Source of the DNA: Candidatus Bipolaricaulota bacterium
GTDB taxonomy: Bacteria; Bipolaricaulota; Bipolaricaulia; UBA7950; UBA9294
Direction of reading: 5' to 3'
Assembly (NCBI GenBank): GCA_026390345.1
Contig: JAPLGD010000090.1
Location: forward strand, 1 to 36,019
Length of the DNA: 36,019 nucleotides
The notes under the pieces are model-generated. The model was not told where the DNA came from and did no database searches. It saw only the letters and a program-made list of their open reading frames with translations. Of this stretch, positions 12,850 through 20,846 are shown in pieces. Positions within the stretch are counted from its first letter, which is position 1. Each line of letters begins with the position of its first letter. The position numbers and the translations under genes were made by a program.

Positions 12850-14181
12850 GTGCGCCTGCCAGCGAGGATCACGCGTTTCAAGCTCCAGAAGTCCGCAGAA
12901 GACGTCGACCTTGTCCTGAGGCAAGTTGTCCGCGACGCGGCACACCGCGTGCCCTTCTACCGGGACCTGTACGGCAAGGCAGCGATTGACGTCTCCAGGT
13001 TCGGCGCTCCCAAGGATCTGTCGGCGCTGCCGCTATCCAGCCGGGAGGCCTTCCAGGAATCGCCGGAGCGCGGTCTCCTGCGAGACGGGCGCGATCCTCA
13101 CCACCTAGCGCGGACGAGCACCAGTGGCTCGACCGGCAAGCCGCTCACGATCTACCTCAGCAGGTCGGAGCTCTACTTCCGCCGCTATAGCATCCTCGCG
13201 GGTCTACGGCACTACGTGCCGCTTCGTTTCCCGTTGCACGTTGCCGACGTGGGCTCTATGGTCCCGCACGGCGGGAAGAGCGTCGAGCAGAGCTTGGGGA
13301 TCGTGCGCATCCTCCGCATCCCGGGGAATGCGCCCCTGCCGGAGCAGCGGGCGGCCCTTCTCCACTATCGACCGGCGGTCCTTGAGGGATACCCGACGTG
13401 CCTTGGCATCCTGGCCGAAAGCTTCTCGGAAACCGAGGCAAGGCTGGTTCGTCCCTCGCTCGTTGCGACCCGCGGCGAATGGCTCCGTGACGACGCGCGC
13501 GAGGTTCTGAGACGAACCTTCCGAGCGCCTGTCGTGAGCCTCTACAACTGCGAGGAGGTTGGGAACCTTGCGTGGGAGTGCCCCGACCACAACGGCCGAT
13601 TCCACCTGAACCACGACACATGCGTGCTCGAGGTGGTTGACGCCCACGGAGATCCCACCACGGGGGAAGGGGATGTCGTCGTGACCAGTCTCTACAACCG
13701 CACAATGCCCTTTCTGCGCTACGACCTTGACGATCGGGCACAACTCGTCGGTGACGCGGATACCACGTGTCCCTGCGGAGCGGCAGGTCCGTGGCTGACA
13801 GACCTGAGCGGCAGCGAGGACGACTTCGTTTCGTTTCCCGACGGCCACCGCATCGCGCCTCTCGTTCTTCCGAACGCGCTCTTCAACGCGTTCCGCGTTC
13901 CCGATGATCCGCACCGGCTGAGCCCTTCCGTTCGTCGCTACCAGATTGTTCAGGACGCAGACTACTCCCTCCGCGTCATCCTCGACTGGCGAGGGCCGTA
14001 CGACGAAGTCTTGTGGAAGCAGATCACGTCCGAAATGGATCGTGCGTGCCAAGGCCTTCGCTGCACGGTGGAGCGAAGCGCGGCCTTCGAGCTCACTCCG
14101 GCAGGCAAGTTCAAGGAGGTCCTCTCGCAGGTGCGCTCCGCCGCAGCTCCGACGGGTTCGGCGCCTACCAGCGCAGCGTGA
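12850..14181 (+). CDS. PaaK/CapK-type adenylate-forming CoA ligase
   Basis: A 443-residue cytoplasmic enzyme of the phenylacetate-CoA ligase/coenzyme F390 synthetase/CapK group. It opens with the typical VVRDAAHRVPFYRDLYGKA block. The phosphate-binding motif TSTSGSTGKPLTIY is near residues 87-100, followed by a VSLYNCEEVGNLAWECPDH block. The adenylate-binding PFLRYDLDDRA follows, and a C-terminal catalytic-lysine region ends in FELTPAGKFKEVLS. Such enzymes activate a carboxylate with ATP and transfer it to CoA or another acceptor; the substrate is not evident. GAGGAGG precedes the GTG at 12850. The 3' end overlaps the convergent barrel gene by 17 bases. It stands alone with its own leader and hairpin. 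Confidence 0.85.
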   Translation: MRLPARITRFKLQKSAEDVDLVLRQVVRDAAHRVPFYRDLYGKAAIDVSRFGAPKDLSALPLSSREAFQESPERGLLRDGRDPHHLARTSTSGSTGKPLTIYLSRSELYFRRYSILAGLRHYVPLRFPLHVADVGSMVPHGGKSVEQSLGIVRILRIPGNAPLPEQRAALLHYRPAVLEGYPTCLGILAESFSETEARLVRPSLVATRGEWLRDDAREVLRRTFRAPVVSLYNCEEVGNLAWECPDHNGRFHLNHDTCVLEVVDAHGDPTTGEGDVVVTSLYNRTMPFLRYDLDDRAQLVGDADTTCPCGAAGPWLTDLSGSEDDFVSFPDGHRIAPLVLPNALFNAFRVPDDPHRLSPSVRRYQIVQDADYSLRVILDWRGPYDEVLWKQITSEMDRACQGLRCTVERSAAFELTPAGKFKEVLSQVRSAAAPTGSAPTSAA

Positions 14182-15412
14182 TCCCCGACTCCACCCTTTC
14201 GACTCCGCCGGTCGTTACCGCGACGCGTACCGACAAGTCGGTTGCTGCACTCAACTCCACGGATGTTTCGACGGAACTCCTTGCCCAGCCGGAGACGCCG
14301 CTCGGGACTCTGTTGAAGTATGTGTCTACGAGTATCCGGTCCTGCCCGCCGCAGCCGCCCCAGACGAACTCGATCGAGAGAAGCTCCCAGTAGTCGGGGT
14401 AGTACAGGTCGCCGTTCTCGACCGCGTCCTCGATCGACTCGATGACGCTCCCGTATTCCTGCGTCGTGATCACGAACCGCCCGGGATCGAGCACTGTGAG
14501 ACTCCGGATCGTGGCCCCGCCCCAGGATGAGACGAGCGCAACGCCACCTAGGCCGAACCCGGCAATCTCCCACTCCCGGGCACCGAAGTACACCCCAAGG
14601 TGCGGTTCCACGCAGAGAAGCCCTTCATGCACCGCGACGCTCGGCGTCACGGCGACGTTCTTCGCCTCGACGTCGTAAGCGAACTCGAGGTCCGTCTCGA
14701 TCCAGCTGATCCCGAGGTCGACGTCCTCGAACTTCGCGGCAAGGCACTCGAGTCCGTCAGCCACGAGGTAGACGATCGCCCTGACGTTCCCCATGCGAGC
14801 GAAGCCGAGACCGCCTACGGACAGCTTCTCACCCGTGAATCCCTCCCCGGGAACGACGGGGTCGGTCGCGTAGTGGCGGTGGCACCCGGTCGCGCCGTGG
14901 ACGATGTCGACCCCGTGAAACTCCTCATCCTCAATCCGCGCTCCGAGTTCGGTGACCGAGGCGATCTCGAATCCTCCGACCTGCCCGGCGAGGCGCACCA
15001 CAGCGCCATCCGCCGGTCCGCCGAGGACGGCGTCGCCCAACACCGCGTAGAAGAACCCGACGTCGACCCCGGCAAGCCGCAACCTCACGATCGCCTGTGC
15101 GTAGAGGAAGTCGGTCGTCGACGGCCCGAACAGGACATCTCCCTGCACCTCGAACGCACCAACCGGCCCTTGCACACCGAACTCCTGCCACAGGTAGCCC
15201 ACGCCGAGCCGGAACTCCGAGTCGCTCGTCCAGAGAACCGTTCCGGTCGCGTATCCGAGCAGGAACGTTGATTCGACCCCGCCGGAGAGCGTGCTGTCCG
15301 GGTCGAGTGAGATTCCCGCCGTCCACTCCGCCGACCACGGACCCGCCGCGAGCCCAGAGAGCCCAAAGAGCGCGATCCCGAGCGCCAGCACGCCGATCGT
15401 CCGTCCGCCCAT
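14165..15412 (-). CDS. Predicted outer-membrane beta-barrel protein
   Basis: A 415-residue exported protein that I do not recognise as a named family. Residues 1-23 are a signal peptide (GVLALGIALFGLSGLAAG). The rest alternates hydrophobic and polar residues in short strands rich in Gly, aromatic residues and Val, and the chain ends VESGITLRW. A terminal aromatic residue is a known outer-membrane barrel insertion signal. A few cysteines (for example GGCGGQ) are present in the C-terminal part. The ATG at 15412 gives the clean signal peptide; the longer in-frame version would overlap the upstream gene. Its start lies 11 bases after the stop of the lipoprotein at 15424-15993, so the two form a small operon. 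Confidence 0.6.
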   Translation of the reverse strand: MGGRTIGVLALGIALFGLSGLAAGPWSAEWTAGISLDPDSTLSGGVESTFLLGYATGTVLWTSDSEFRLGVGYLWQEFGVQGPVGAFEVQGDVLFGPSTTDFLYAQAIVRLRLAGVDVGFFYAVLGDAVLGGPADGAVVRLAGQVGGFEIASVTELGARIEDEEFHGVDIVHGATGCHRHYATDPVVPGEGFTGEKLSVGGLGFARMGNVRAIVYLVADGLECLAAKFEDVDLGISWIETDLEFAYDVEAKNVAVTPSVAVHEGLLCVEPHLGVYFGAREWEIAGFGLGGVALVSSWGGATIRSLTVLDPGRFVITTQEYGSVIESIEDAVENGDLYYPDYWELLSIEFVWGGCGGQDRILVDTYFNRVPSGVSGWARSSVETSVELSAATDLSVRVAVTTGGVERVESGITLRW

Positions 15413-15423
15413 TCGCCTCTCCC

Positions 15424-15993
15424 CTACCGCGCGATGTACACGGCGTCCGCGCTCGTCCTCAGGGTCCACGCCGTCACGAACTCGCCCTCGTCGCTCGCGA
15501 GCCTCACCGACGCCTTCGTCACGACGAACATCGGGTTGTCTCCGGTCACCGTGAACGTGAATCTCAGGATGTCGCCGCCGACCACGCCGTCCGCCCCGCT
15601 TGCGGCAATCACGGCCCCGCCCACAGGACCAAATGCTTCGGCGAGCACAACGAACCCGTTCACTCCTTCAATTTCAACCGAGGCGGGGTCGATATCGCTG
15701 AGCGCAATCGCTGCGCTGCCTACTTCGCCAAACTGAATCGCCGCCAGCCCGCCCGCCGGCATGTCGACGACCGCAACGAGGACGTAGCCGTAGGTTCCGC
15801 TCGCTTGCACGTCGCCCACGTAGAGCGTCGGCAGCTCAGTCGATGGTGCAAAGAACCCGCCGCACGCCGCGAGACCGAGCACGATCGCCCCACCCAGTGC
15901 CCCGCCCGCCAGAAGGCACGCCCTCCGCGTTCTGACGAAGCTAGACAGGCTGTGCCGCTCCTCTGATGTCCCTTGCACGTAGATGGCATGCAT
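15424..15993 (-). CDS. Lipoprotein with cohesin-like beta domain, upstream of the barrel gene
   Basis: A protein of about 189 residues. After a basic stretch, a hydrophobic segment ends in a lipobox-like LGLAACGG, predicting lipidation. The remaining 130 residues are beta-rich. The pattern YVGDVQASGTYGYVLVAVVDMPAGGLAAIQFG followed by GDILRFTFTVTG resembles cohesin or related carbohydrate-surface beta-sandwiches; that match is by pattern only. The start is uncertain. A promoter at 16002-16029 puts transcription near 15995, so the ATG at 15993 would be almost leaderless, and the GTG at 15978 is the next choice. It is probably a surface or periplasmic partner of the barrel protein. Confidence 0.6.
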   Translation of the reverse strand: MHAIYVQGTSEERHSLSSFVRTRRACLLAGGALGGAIVLGLAACGGFFAPSTELPTLYVGDVQASGTYGYVLVAVVDMPAGGLAAIQFGEVGSAAIALSDIDPASVEIEGVNGFVVLAEAFGPVGGAVIAASGADGVVGGDILRFTFTVTGDNPMFVVTKASVRLASDEGEFVTAWTLRTSADAVYIAR

Positions 15994-16001
15994 GCACATC
16001 T

Positions 16002-16106: not shown

Positions 16107-19100
16107 TCAGTAGTCTCGCTCGCTTCCCATGAGCATCAGCCCAAGGGTGATGGCTCGTCCGGCCCGCTCGAGGTCGCTCGCCTCCACGGCCCACGACGGG
16201 TCGTCGAGAGCGGTCGCTTCCCGCCACCGCTCATAGGAGAGGATCGCCTCGGGCGCCTTCTCGCCCGCCTCGAAGGCCGTCTTGCCGGAGAGCGCCGAAC
16301 GCAGATCGACGGCGGTCTCGGCGACCGCCATCCGCGACCCCATCCGCGACGCAGCCGACCGGAACAGGTTCGACAGGCGCATGCCACCCGACGTCTCCAC
16401 GGCAAGGCGCGACGTGGCGCCTCGCCCGAGCGCTTGTAGTTGCACGACGGCCTCGACCGCATAGCGACCGGGCGGGAAGATCGATCTCTTCAGGAACTCC
16501 TCGGCGCTCGGTTCGCCGCGGAACTCTCCTCCGGCCCATCCCACCCCGCTGTAGGCGACCAGCAGGAAGCTGCGGCTCGGCGCGTACTCGGACTGCTTAA
16601 GGAGCCGAGCCATCTCGAGAAGGACGGCAACCCCACTCGCGTTGTCGTTTGCATCTTCGCTCTCTGGTGAGCCCGGCCGGGTCGGCCAGCTGTCGTACTG
16701 TGCCAGCACGGCGATGACCTGGTTGTCGAGCTGGTCTCCCTGCGCGCCGCGCGTCCCCGGAATCCAGCCAACGACATGGCGTACCGCAACCTCGCCTCGA
16801 ATCTCGCCCTGGGCGCGAAGCGACGCCCGCCGCGGAAGGACGAACGTCAGCGGGTTTCGCGCATCCACCTCCGGAACGTCGTCCTTGAGACTGGCGAGAG
16901 TCCACCCTGAGCCCGCAAGGATTCGTTCCGCCGTCGCCTCAGAGATCCAGAATGTGACGCGGTCGATCGGCGTTGAAGCCGCGGACGTGACCGTGAGCGC
17001 CCAATCGGCGCGGCTCTCCGGTGAGACAACGGACCTGCGCGCGAGCGCCTCCTCGTCCGACGCCACGACGAGTACGGCAGCGCACCGCCTGCCCGCCAGG
17101 AGTTCGGCATCCTGCGACGACAGCACAAGGACGATCTCGTGCGAGAGGTCCACCCGCTTGAATCGGCTGACGTCGATCTCGCCGTATGTAGGGTCTTCGC
17201 CGAACGAGACGAAGCGGATCGAACCCTCTGCCTCCCCGATGCAGCGGAATCGATCCGCGTACTCCGCGAAGTCGATCCCATAGCGCAGCTCCGCTTCTCC
17301 GTCATCGAGCGCGAGGACCGGAACCTCCGTCAACCTCTCGAACCCGCCCGTGCTGGAGACGAAGTAGCCGCCGCCCCCGCCGATCGCCTGGAGCGACAGG
17401 CGTCCGAACTCCGTCGCGATGTAGTCGGCGGCCGACTCGGCGCCCGCCGTGCCGAGTTCGCGTCCGCCAAGCCCCACAGTCAGCGCCGCGACGTGCGTGG
17501 CCGCCCGGTCACCGTCGAACAGCGCGGCGTCGCGTCGATAGACGCCCGCCGGCCCCAGGCTGCCCGAGATGCAGTAGAACAGAATCCCGGCTGCTGCGGC
17601 GCCGGCGAACGTGTAGCGGTTGAACACGCGTCGCAGGTAGAAGCTGCCCCGCTCGATCTCTCGCCGGATCCCCTCGCCGAGGAGGTAGAAGCCGAACGAC
17701 GAGATGAAGATCGCGAGCGAGGGGTAGATGCCGAGCCACGGGTGAGCTCTAGCCGACTGGCGGAACGTCGCCAAGAGCGCGCCCCACTCCGGGACATCGG
17801 AGTAGTGGAGGGGCGGAGCGAACATCTCCATCTCCGCGTACGCGCCGCCGCCAAGGAAGATCCCGAGGAATCCGAGTTCGCCAAGGACGACGAGGACGGC
17901 CGAGAACTCGACCGCAAGAAGCGCCACGAGGGACGGCGCCATGTGCGGAAGCAGGTGCGCGGCCACCAGGCGCGGAGTTCTCATGCCCACGGCCCGAGCG
18001 CTCTCCACGAAGGGCCGCGACTTCAGCGCGATCATCTCCGCGCGCACGAACTGGGCCAGCTCGCCCCAACCGATCACGCAGAGACCAATCGCAAAGGGTA
18101 CGACCCCCTGACGGATGCCGACCGCAAGGATGACAAGCATGGCGAGGAGAAGCGCCGGGAACGGCGTGATAACCTGGGCAAGCCCAACGATCGCTCGGTC
18201 GAGGAACGAGCCGCGCCGCCACCCCGCAATCACACCCAGAAAAACCCCAACCACCATGCGTGCCGCAACGGCCACGGCGGCCAAGAGGAGAGTCTGCTGG
18301 GCTCCCGCAAGCACAAGGCTCATCAGGTCGCGTCCGAGAGCGTCGGTTCCCCATGGGAACTTCGCGCTAGGCGCGAACGGAGGCCCCATGTACGTTCCGC
18401 CGACCTTCTCGAGGCCGCGGGTGAGGTACGGGTTGTGCGGCGCAAGGTCCGCTCCGAAGAAGACCACGACGAGAACGCCAGCGCACAGAAGCCCGCCGGC
18501 AAGAAGCGGAAGGTTGGCATGGAAGCGGCCCCGGCGGGGACTGCGGGCCGATGCTTCCTCGGGAACGCGGACGCGCGGCCGTCGAGCGCGTCTCCTTGCG
18601 GCTCGGACCAGGTACGCCAGCCATTCGCGAGGGAGCCGGACAAGGGACCGCACGCCGTCGACGACGGCGGCGATCGCGTCGCGGAACGACGCCCGCGGCT
18701 CTTCGAGTTCGAGTGCCGCCTTACCCAAGCGCGGATCGAGGAGCGGGTACGAGAGCTCAAGGAGCATCTGGACTGCCAGAAAGACAAGGGCAAGCGAGAG
18801 CAGAAGCGCGACCGTCAAGTTGTCGTCCTGGTTCGAGATGGCCCGCAGCAGCGTGTATCCAGCGCCCGACCATCCGAAGTAGACCTCGACGACCGGCAGA
18901 CTCGCCAGGGCGAAACGAAGCGAGATGGCGGCCGTGGTCAAGACCGGCATCACGGCGTTCCGCGCGACGTGACGCGACAAGATTCTCGAGAACGCCACCC
19001 CTTTCCCGTAAGCGGTCCGCACGTAGTCCTGCTCCAGAATCTCCCGCACCTTGATGAACGTGATCCGCGCGATCTGGGAGACCGGCCTTGCCGCGAGAAC

Positions 19101-19646
19101 CAAGGTCGGCAGGACGAGTTCCCCGCCCCACCCGAATCCTCCGACCGGTAGGACGCTGTGGCCGACAGCATGAGTGATCTTGAGAACAACGACTTGAAGA
19201 AGGAGAGCGACGAAGAAGCTGGGAGCCGACGCGCCGAGGATTGAGCAGAAGAGGAGGAACGACGAGGCCAGTCGCCGCCGAGACACCGCGGCCGCGGTCC
19301 CCAGGAGGACACCGACCAAGGTCGCGACACCAAGCGTCACGCCGAGAAGGCCAAGGCTTCGCGGCAGGGTCACGGCCAGAACCTGCGCCACGGGAAGCCG
19401 ACGCGACGTCGGACCGCCCACGGAGGTCATTCCCAAGTCCCCGCGCGAGAGACGGACGACGTAGGCGGAGAACTCCTCGCTCGCGTGGCGCAGCGCGTCG
19501 CCCGTAGGCGCTCCGCGGGCGAGGTCGAGGGCGAACAGAGTGAAAAAGACCGTCGCCAGGCCCACAAGGAGCACGAGCGCAATCCGCTCGCCCGCCCGAA
19601 GGGCAATCCTGCCGAGCCCCGTCCCGTTCTCGCAACTCAGCCGCAC
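16107..19646 (-). CDS. DppB-DppC-M28 fusion: two ABC permease domains plus a degenerate peptidase-like domain
   Basis: A 1179-residue membrane protein made of three parts normally found separately. Residues about 10-340 resemble DppB/OppB permeases, with the EAA-type loop DYVRTAYGKGVAFSRILSRH. After a basic linker, residues about 385-640 resemble DppC/OppC (FPWGTDALGRDLMSLVL; ESARAVGMRTPRLVAAHLLP). A further helix near 675-697 leads into a periplasmic M28-peptidase-like domain with a PA-like insertion (about 720-1170). In M28 enzymes the first metal ligand is His in HxDS; here it is Gln (AQYDSW, near 982). The Asp of DNASGVA is kept, but the Glu-Glu pair is replaced by SGVGWAGGE. A catalytic role is therefore unlikely. 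The GTG at 19646 follows GGGGGAGGG. No binding protein or ATPase gene is in the window. Confidence 0.85.
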   Translation of the reverse strand: MRLSCENGTGLGRIALRAGERIALVLLVGLATVFFTLFALDLARGAPTGDALRHASEEFSAYVVRLSRGDLGMTSVGGPTSRRLPVAQVLAVTLPRSLGLLGVTLGVATLVGVLLGTAAAVSRRRLASSFLLFCSILGASAPSFFVALLLQVVVLKITHAVGHSVLPVGGFGWGGELVLPTLVLAARPVSQIARITFIKVREILEQDYVRTAYGKGVAFSRILSRHVARNAVMPVLTTAAISLRFALASLPVVEVYFGWSGAGYTLLRAISNQDDNLTVALLLSLALVFLAVQMLLELSYPLLDPRLGKAALELEEPRASFRDAIAAVVDGVRSLVRLPREWLAYLVRAARRRARRPRVRVPEEASARSPRRGRFHANLPLLAGGLLCAGVLVVVFFGADLAPHNPYLTRGLEKVGGTYMGPPFAPSAKFPWGTDALGRDLMSLVLAGAQQTLLLAAVAVAARMVVGVFLGVIAGWRRGSFLDRAIVGLAQVITPFPALLLAMLVILAVGIRQGVVPFAIGLCVIGWGELAQFVRAEMIALKSRPFVESARAVGMRTPRLVAAHLLPHMAPSLVALLAVEFSAVLVVLGELGFLGIFLGGGAYAEMEMFAPPLHYSDVPEWGALLATFRQSARAHPWLGIYPSLAIFISSFGFYLLGEGIRREIERGSFYLRRVFNRYTFAGAAAAGILFYCISGSLGPAGVYRRDAALFDGDRAATHVAALTVGLGGRELGTAGAESAADYIATEFGRLSLQAIGGGGGYFVSSTGGFERLTEVPVLALDDGEAELRYGIDFAEYADRFRCIGEAEGSIRFVSFGEDPTYGEIDVSRFKRVDLSHEIVLVLSSQDAELLAGRRCAAVLVVASDEEALARRSVVSPESRADWALTVTSAASTPIDRVTFWISEATAERILAGSGWTLASLKDDVPEVDARNPLTFVLPRRASLRAQGEIRGEVAVRHVVGWIPGTRGAQGDQLDNQVIAVLAQYDSWPTRPGSPESEDANDNASGVAVLLEMARLLKQSEYAPSRSFLLVAYSGVGWAGGEFRGEPSAEEFLKRSIFPPGRYAVEAVVQLQALGRGATSRLAVETSGGMRLSNLFRSAASRMGSRMAVAETAVDLRSALSGKTAFEAGEKAPEAILSYERWREATALDDPSWAVEASDLERAGRAITLGLMLMGSERDY

Positions 19647-19829
19647 CGGACGCCCTCCCCCACTGCGTCGCTCTGCGGCCTGCAGTATAGCGCAGCGGCA
19701 GAGCCCAGACGCCGAATCGCCTCGCCAGTTGCCTTCTAGGTAGGGTGAGCCTACCCTAGTCTGTGTGTGACGGGCCGCGTGAGCGCGGACGATCCAATAG
19801 CCGGTCCGGAAGCGAGAAAGGGAGATGCG

Positions 19830-20846
19830 ATGCGCTTCAGTCGAATCCTGTGTCTTGGAGTGATGGCGTTTCTTGTCTTGCTTGGCGGGTGCGCCGAACG
19901 TCAGCCAACATCCCCCGGTGCCACCCAGCCGCCTGAGGCCGCGCCCGGGACGCCTACGGCGGTGCGGGCCTCCGAAGGCCAATTCCCTGACCGAGTCCAC
20001 GTAGCCTGGGAAGCCGCCGCGGGAGCGTCCTGGTATACGGTACAGCGCTCGCTCAGCACGTCGGGGCCCTTCGAGCCGATTGGGATGACGAAGAACACAA
20101 CCTGGGACGACACGGCAGCGCAGCCCGGGCAATCGTACTCCTACCGGGTCACGTCCAGCCGAAGCCCCGCTACCAACGCAGCTCAGAGCGTGCCTTCCCA
20201 TTCGGCGCTCGGGTATGCGGGCGGCCGAGCTCCAACGGAAGCCGCCACCCTTGTTTCTCCGTCCGGACTCCGAGTCTCGGAAGCCACGTTCCCAGATCGC
20301 GTCCGCGTAAGCTGGAACGCTGCTCCGGACGCCGCTTGGTACAACGTCTACCGGTCGGGCAGCGCGACGGGTTCTTTCATCAACGTGGCAGGCACAAGAG
20401 GCACGACGTGGGATGACACAAACGTTGCGCCCGGGTCCCTCTACTACTACAGAGTTAGCTCGAGCCGAAGCCCGGCGAGCAACGCCGCCCAGAGCCCGCA
20501 GTCCGAGTCTGCCTCGGGCCAGGCCGGCTCGATGCCCACCGCGAAGTCAACCGGATCGCCCGCGTCACCGACGGGTCTCCTCGCGTCCGATGGAACGGTG
20601 CGGCGGAGTATCCACGTCACGTGGAGTGCCGTACCGGGCGCCTCGTGGTACAACGTCTACCGAGCCACCGCCGCGTCGGGACCCTTCAAGAAGGTCGCGA
20701 CAACGCGAGCGACAAGCTGGGACGACACGTCGATCGAGTCTGGGCCTCTGTACTACTACGCCCTGAGCTCGGCGACCAGCGCAGCGGACAATGCGCCAGA
20801 GAGCCCACGGTCGGCTCCCGAAGCGGGCTACGCGGGCTGGCAGTAG
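19830..20846 (+). CDS. Lipoprotein with three fibronectin type III repeats
   Basis: A 338-residue exported protein. The signal ends in a lipobox (VLLGGC, C21). A Pro/Thr linker leads to three fibronectin III-like repeats of about 95 residues each. The repeats share P-x-x-VRASE/DG, (V/I)HV(A/T)W, ASWYxVYRS, SGPFxxV, TTWDDT and LYYYRVSS. Repeats are joined by Ser/Ala-rich linkers, and SRSPASNAAQS recurs. No enzymatic domain is visible, so it probably has a structural or adhesive envelope role. The ATG at 19830 has GGGAG at good spacing; an upstream in-frame ATG-less extension is not signal-like. It is divergent from the permease fusion gene, and a strong hairpin follows its stop. Confidence 0.8.
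   Translation: MRFSRILCLGVMAFLVLLGGCAERQPTSPGATQPPEAAPGTPTAVRASEGQFPDRVHVAWEAAAGASWYTVQRSLSTSGPFEPIGMTKNTTWDDTAAQPGQSYSYRVTSSRSPATNAAQSVPSHSALGYAGGRAPTEAATLVSPSGLRVSEATFPDRVRVSWNAAPDAAWYNVYRSGSATGSFINVAGTRGTTWDDTNVAPGSLYYYRVSSSRSPASNAAQSPQSESASGQAGSMPTAKSTGSPASPTGLLASDGTVRRSIHVTWSAVPGASWYNVYRATAASGPFKKVATTRATSWDDTSIESGPLYYYALSSATSAADNAPESPRSAPEAGYAGWQ

Follow-up and report, generated by a model that had tools for sequence, protein, structure and literature searches.

Two permease halves and an M28-like domain in one chain

The window (the whole 36,019-nucleotide stretch of Bipolaricaulota DNA that we analyzed) carries a single uninterrupted frame of 1,179 codons plus a stop at 16107–19646 on the minus strand. 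The gene starts with GTG at 19646 and stops at 16107, and a ribosome-binding-site-like GGGGGAGGG (19653–19661), read from the sequence, lies six bases upstream of the GTG; all of its parts described below are given on this strand. In order, the encoded chain consists of a DppB-like half, a DppC-like half, an extra helix and an M28-like domain, an architecture already proposed in the initial annotation and borne out by the intact frame, the Pfam and NCBIfam matches and hydropathy. Pfam finds BPD_transp_1 twice (E 1.2e-43 for the protein), and NCBIfam and Pfam assign the first permease domain to the DppB type and the second to the DppC type, as in Dpp/Opp-type permeases. Both the B half (residues 20–310; 18717–19589) and the C half (residues 375–668; 17643–18524) also match solved DppB and DppC chains. 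They are joined by a basic linker (residues 311–374; 18525–18716) that, judging from hydropathy, is probably cytoplasmic.

The C half is followed by one extra hydrophobic segment (residues 679–698; 17553–17612), so the M28-like part behind it (residues 700–1179; 16110–17549) would be periplasmic in a hydropathy-based topology. Pfam matches Peptidase_M28 (PF04389) at residues 972–1106 (E 2.7e-11), the family profile aligns with this part as well, and among the Pfam matches to the protein there is an M28 domain and no SBP-family domain. The PA-like insertion proposed earlier fared less clearly: Pfam recognizes no PA domain, but a region of suitable length does intervene at the PA-domain place, and the family profile aligns across the corresponding part of the transferrin receptor. 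AlphaFold2, run with only four input sequences, gave a mean pLDDT of 33 for the M28-like part and 36 for the full chain.

The genes on either side lack Pfam matches over the cut-off. The divergent neighbor (19767–20846, plus strand) begins like a lipoprotein and contains three FN3-like repeats that resemble one another. Two frames, one of 434 residues and a lipoprotein-like one of 191, lie downstream on the same strand as the fusion (14165–15999).

The source genome is a fragmented MAG of 1.98 Mb in 119 contigs. An orthologue that is 85% identical and exactly equal in length is present in Candidatus Bipolaricaulis isolate STA_74 (L021), which belongs to the same genus group, and one copy of the fusion layout sits on a 5.35-Mb contig (L083). 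Between the window gene and the STA_74 orthologue dN/dS was 0.13 overall and 0.04–0.32 across parts, with 0.09 for the B half, 0.04 for the C half, 0.19 for the M28-like part and 0.32 for the linker. These low values in each part indicate that all of them are constrained.

Relatives of the fusion and the loss of their zinc site

Domain searches of the fetched loci revealed three layouts. Layout I (B-C-M28), that of the window gene, was confirmed in 33 genes, most of them from Anaerolineae. In layout I' an ABC ATPase domain precedes the same parts (ABC-B-C-M28; six genes, at L086, L092, L093, L106, L125 and L126, all in Anaerolineae-class genomes); L086, L125 and L126 have an intact Walker A, which L092, L093 and L106 have lost. 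In L086, L092, L093 and L106 the genes immediately upstream are of the HlyD-family and MacB_PCD/FtsX types, as assigned by Pfam on the L106 copies. In layout II, B is a gene of its own ahead of a C-M28 fusion, and the pair usually comes with a double-M28 protein of 1,600–2,080 residues and often with a PD40 propeller (L095:6959-16675, L087, L089–L091, L094, L096 and L105). The first M28 domain of the double protein is intact and the second partly decayed, and the L095 copy shows a weak MA-type peptidase match between the two. Near type I fusions we also saw a recurrent frame of 585–661 residues with no Pfam match (L078:4271-6253 on the minus strand, L073, L081, L082 and L083), which may represent an unknown gene.

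To judge from these searches the family is centered on Anaerolineae, since fused forms were apparent in only about 4 of 400 genomes in a sample of the wider phylum. Of 396 genomes in the class to which the Anaerolineae relatives belong, 71 had a match, and about 46, counted by frame length, had an open frame of 1,100–1,510 residues. Across 100 Bipolaricaulota genomes, the fusion-type C-terminal part occurred only in the window genome, STA_74, G069 and a broken remnant in G084; two further matches were solo M28 enzymes. The G084 remnant (L109:49-678 and L027) comprises only scraps of the gene, namely the start of B, a fragment of its end and the final 210 residues of M28; the gene seems to have decayed. 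Searches of plasmid and viral collections returned no relatives of the fusion. A phylogeny of M28 domains separates the fused domains, as a single clade, from the active ones (SH-aLRT 99) and puts type I' on a branch of its own. The Bipolaricaulota genes are nested inside the Anaerolineae type I genes (support 98), which suggests that the Bipolaricaulota copies arose by horizontal transfer.

We numbered the M28 site according to the Vibrio aminopeptidase (AAP), whose zinc-ligand and catalytic positions we take to be H97, D117, E151 (catalytic), E152, D179 and H256, the fifth ligand being the His of an HxxxDT-like motif. The initial annotation had read the metal and catalytic positions of the window protein as changed, with only an Asp kept, and alignment confirmed this: H97 is replaced by Q983, E151 by V1035, E152 by G1036, D179 by Q1071 and H256 by T1145, leaving D117 (D1001) as the single zinc ligand. 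The domain thus has the M28 fold by profile and lacks both the set of five ligands and the catalytic Glu of an active M28 metallopeptidase. It is under purifying selection although four of its five zinc ligands are gone.

The loss extends across the homologues of the same architecture. When aligned with intact M28 enzymes, none of the 48 fused M28 domains had all five ligands (H, D, E, D, H), and only five retained four of them. All five were present in the four solo enzymes, and likewise in the first domain of 11 double-M28 proteins; in one more, the domain search had split the first domain into two pieces. The commonest replacement pattern in fused domains is Q-D-E-G-R. Among the 33 type I domains, Q stands at H97 in 17, G at E152 in 24 and R at D179 in 22, and D117 is kept in 29. 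This pattern is not random, which speaks for the old pocket having been put to another use, possibly binding.

A changed periplasmic face and a conserved coupling side

In the structures of E. coli DppABCDF, the DppB residues 32–62 make up a scoop motif lodged in the cleft of DppA, where E41 and R42 make salt bridges; deletion of the scoop impairs uptake, and the scoop has been proposed to seal the cavity in the manner of a door (PMC12136057). We aligned the B halves to E. coli DppB (MG1655 record) and found most of this motif deleted. Only 12 of the 31 scoop residues are left in the window protein, where the site falls at residues 45–58 (19473–19514), and in those of STA_74, G069, L022, L074 and L080; E41 and R42 are not kept in the window protein. 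The type I' protein of L125 and two type II B proteins have 18–19 residues left; canonical DppB proteins encoded in the same genomes or by neighboring genes retain 28–30. The distance between landmarks flanking the motif is 25 residues in the window protein and 25–32 in all 32 fused B halves that could be scored and in 13 of 13 separate type II B proteins. In 17 canonical DppB proteins it is 42–66, with no overlap.

When the scoop columns were left out of the tree of B sequences, a single change of state was enough to account for the scoop-less proteins, indicating that scoop loss and fusion were not independent repeats. The loss of the scoop and the gain of an M28 partner can be mapped to the same stem, as would be expected of one long-kept event rather than of repeated convergence.

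The C half differs from its canonical counterpart on the same face. Its periplasmic loop between TM5 and TM6 (FLGGGAYAEMEMFAPPLHYSDV; residues 597–618; 17793–17858) belongs to a class of 22–28 residues in fusions versus 7–8 in canonical DppC. Both changes, the lost scoop in B and the longer loop in C, lie at the presumed docking face of a binding protein.

The cytoplasmic side is unchanged relative to Dpp permeases. Both EAA coupling helices of the DppB/DppC type are kept in the window protein (DYVRTAYGKG..., 18954–19028, in the B half; PFVESARAVG..., 17943–18014, in the C half) and in most of the family. The lysine equivalent to E. coli DppB K243, which pairs with DppD (PMC12136057), is also retained in the fusion B half, as K215 in the window protein.

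We found no ABC ATPase or SBP_bac_5 gene anywhere on the window's contig, so the earlier remark that none is adjacent was correct. Where the ATPases are concerned it carries little weight, because ATPases acting in trans seem usual in this genome: it has eight oligo_HPY ATPases, which make only four DppD/DppF-type pairs, for ten or eleven SBP_bac_5 matches (contigs C56, C85, C87, C23, C58 and C8), and several peptide importers probably share them. In G069, moreover, a complete SBP-B-C-D-F cluster precedes the fusion gene (L107).

A candidate receptor in place of the binding protein

The initial annotation had seen in the gene a pseudo-peptidase tethered to an importer, which could capture or gate peptides and do the job of a binding protein. 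Its pseudo-peptidase and importer parts were borne out, the former by a ligand loss that runs through the whole family. As for the job itself, a dead peptidase has been fused to a permease that has lost the loop engaging the binding protein, so the peptidase may have taken over the work of the lost partner. We see nearly even chances that the window gene encodes a one-chain importer permease of the Dpp/Opp type, with the tethered dead M28-fold domain as its receptor and its ATPases supplied in trans. The B and C halves would form the channel, and their coupling helices would engage two DppD/DppF-type ATPases encoded elsewhere in the genome. The thirteenth helix would hold the M28-like domain over the channel, where the former active-site pocket could present peptides, or their ends, to it. 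With the M28-like domain replacing DppA, no separate SBP would be needed, the DppB scoop that engages and seals DppA could be dispensed with, and the new periplasmic loop of the C half might replace part of the lost interface. The broader proposal, that the family is a lineage of type I ABC importers without a clam-shell binding protein, in which the tethered dead M28 domain is the substrate receptor and the DppB scoop mechanism was lost along with the binding protein, we put forward tentatively.

Binding-protein genes near several fusion loci speak against such a receptor. L067, L077, L078, L082, L083 and L107 have SBP_bac_5 genes close to the fusion, which would fit an M28-like domain that binds no substrate and serves instead to regulate the channel, to seal it, or to dock a separate SBP in a new way without need of a scoop. 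Since the E. coli scoop has itself been proposed as a sealing door (PMC12136057), the new parts could do the sealing in its place. In five of the six loci, however, the SBP can use a canonical scoop-bearing B encoded in the same cluster: B-C and SBP genes are found in L067, SBP-B-C in L077, L078 and L082, and the complete cluster in L107. No SBP is encoded on the window's contig, and we consider a lid or gate of this kind unlikely.

A second point against the receptor comes from the type I' branch, which is tied to MacB/HlyD-type genes and in which three of the six fused ABC domains have lost Walker A. These neighbors, and the lack of a transport partner on the window's contig, could mean that the chain serves export, signaling or envelope work, with the permease fold as a scaffold in the membrane that other ATPases drive. 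Type I' branches off separately in the tree, though, and the conserved coupling helices argue for uptake, as do the peptide-import neighborhoods among type I relatives. Other neighbors are related to peptides too: a gene for an M32 carboxypeptidase Taq lies directly downstream of the fusion in one locus (L072:10618-12246, by Pfam), a frame 84% identical to it has the same position in another (L070:10641-12323), and type II loci have the gene for the double-M28 protein. A role outside uptake seems quite improbable to us.

The M28-like domain might also still be an enzyme, using one metal or a different chemistry to trim peptides on entry. The frequent retention of Asp117 and the five domains with four ligands would suit this, but with one ligand and a Val at the catalytic Glu in the window protein, and a complete site nowhere in the family, we find it very hard to credit. 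An artefact of sequencing, frameshift or assembly join, an early concern given a MAG in 119 contigs, is ruled out by the same layout in orthologues from other genomes and by purifying selection on every part.

The component parts of the candidate receptor complex are already known. E. coli DppB and DppC are homologous to the two halves over the transmembrane domain and have the coupling helices and the K243 equivalent in common with them (PMC12136057). The window protein differs from them in being one chain, in having most of the scoop deleted and a C-half loop 14–20 residues longer, in its added C-terminal M28-like domain, and in the lack of an ATPase or SBP gene on its contig. The family profile matches the M28 core of the aminopeptidases AAP (1amp) and YwaD (6hc6), which differ from the fused domains in their zinc site. 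Searched against the PDB, the fusion-family profile also found nicalin (7tm3) and the transferrin receptor (1de4), which share the M28 fold. Nicalin, the transferrin receptor and nicastrin are non-catalytic, eukaryotic membrane proteins of this fold, and we know of none that is fused to a transporter. GlnPQ is an importer with binding domains fused to the permease, and the fused binding domains of OpuA and GlnPQ are SBP-type clam shells. In OpuA, likewise, the binding domains belong to the permease (PMC11065425). The window protein resembles these importers in that a candidate receptor is covalently tied to the permease, and differs in that this domain has the M28 fold by profile. For the fusion itself, for a pseudo-peptidase in the place of a binding domain, and for a scoop-less Dpp permease, we found no description in the open-access literature, outside which most subscription papers lie.

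The general view is that type I ABC importers cannot do without a clam-shell binding protein. In the absence of DppA, the DppBCDF translocator of E. coli is inactive (PMC12136057). A naturally occurring family, spread over two phyla, in which most of the docking loop is lost and a pseudo-peptidase gained would allow a direct test of whether another fold can replace the binding protein. It would also provide a case from bacteria in which a dead M28 enzyme has been recruited to a membrane complex.
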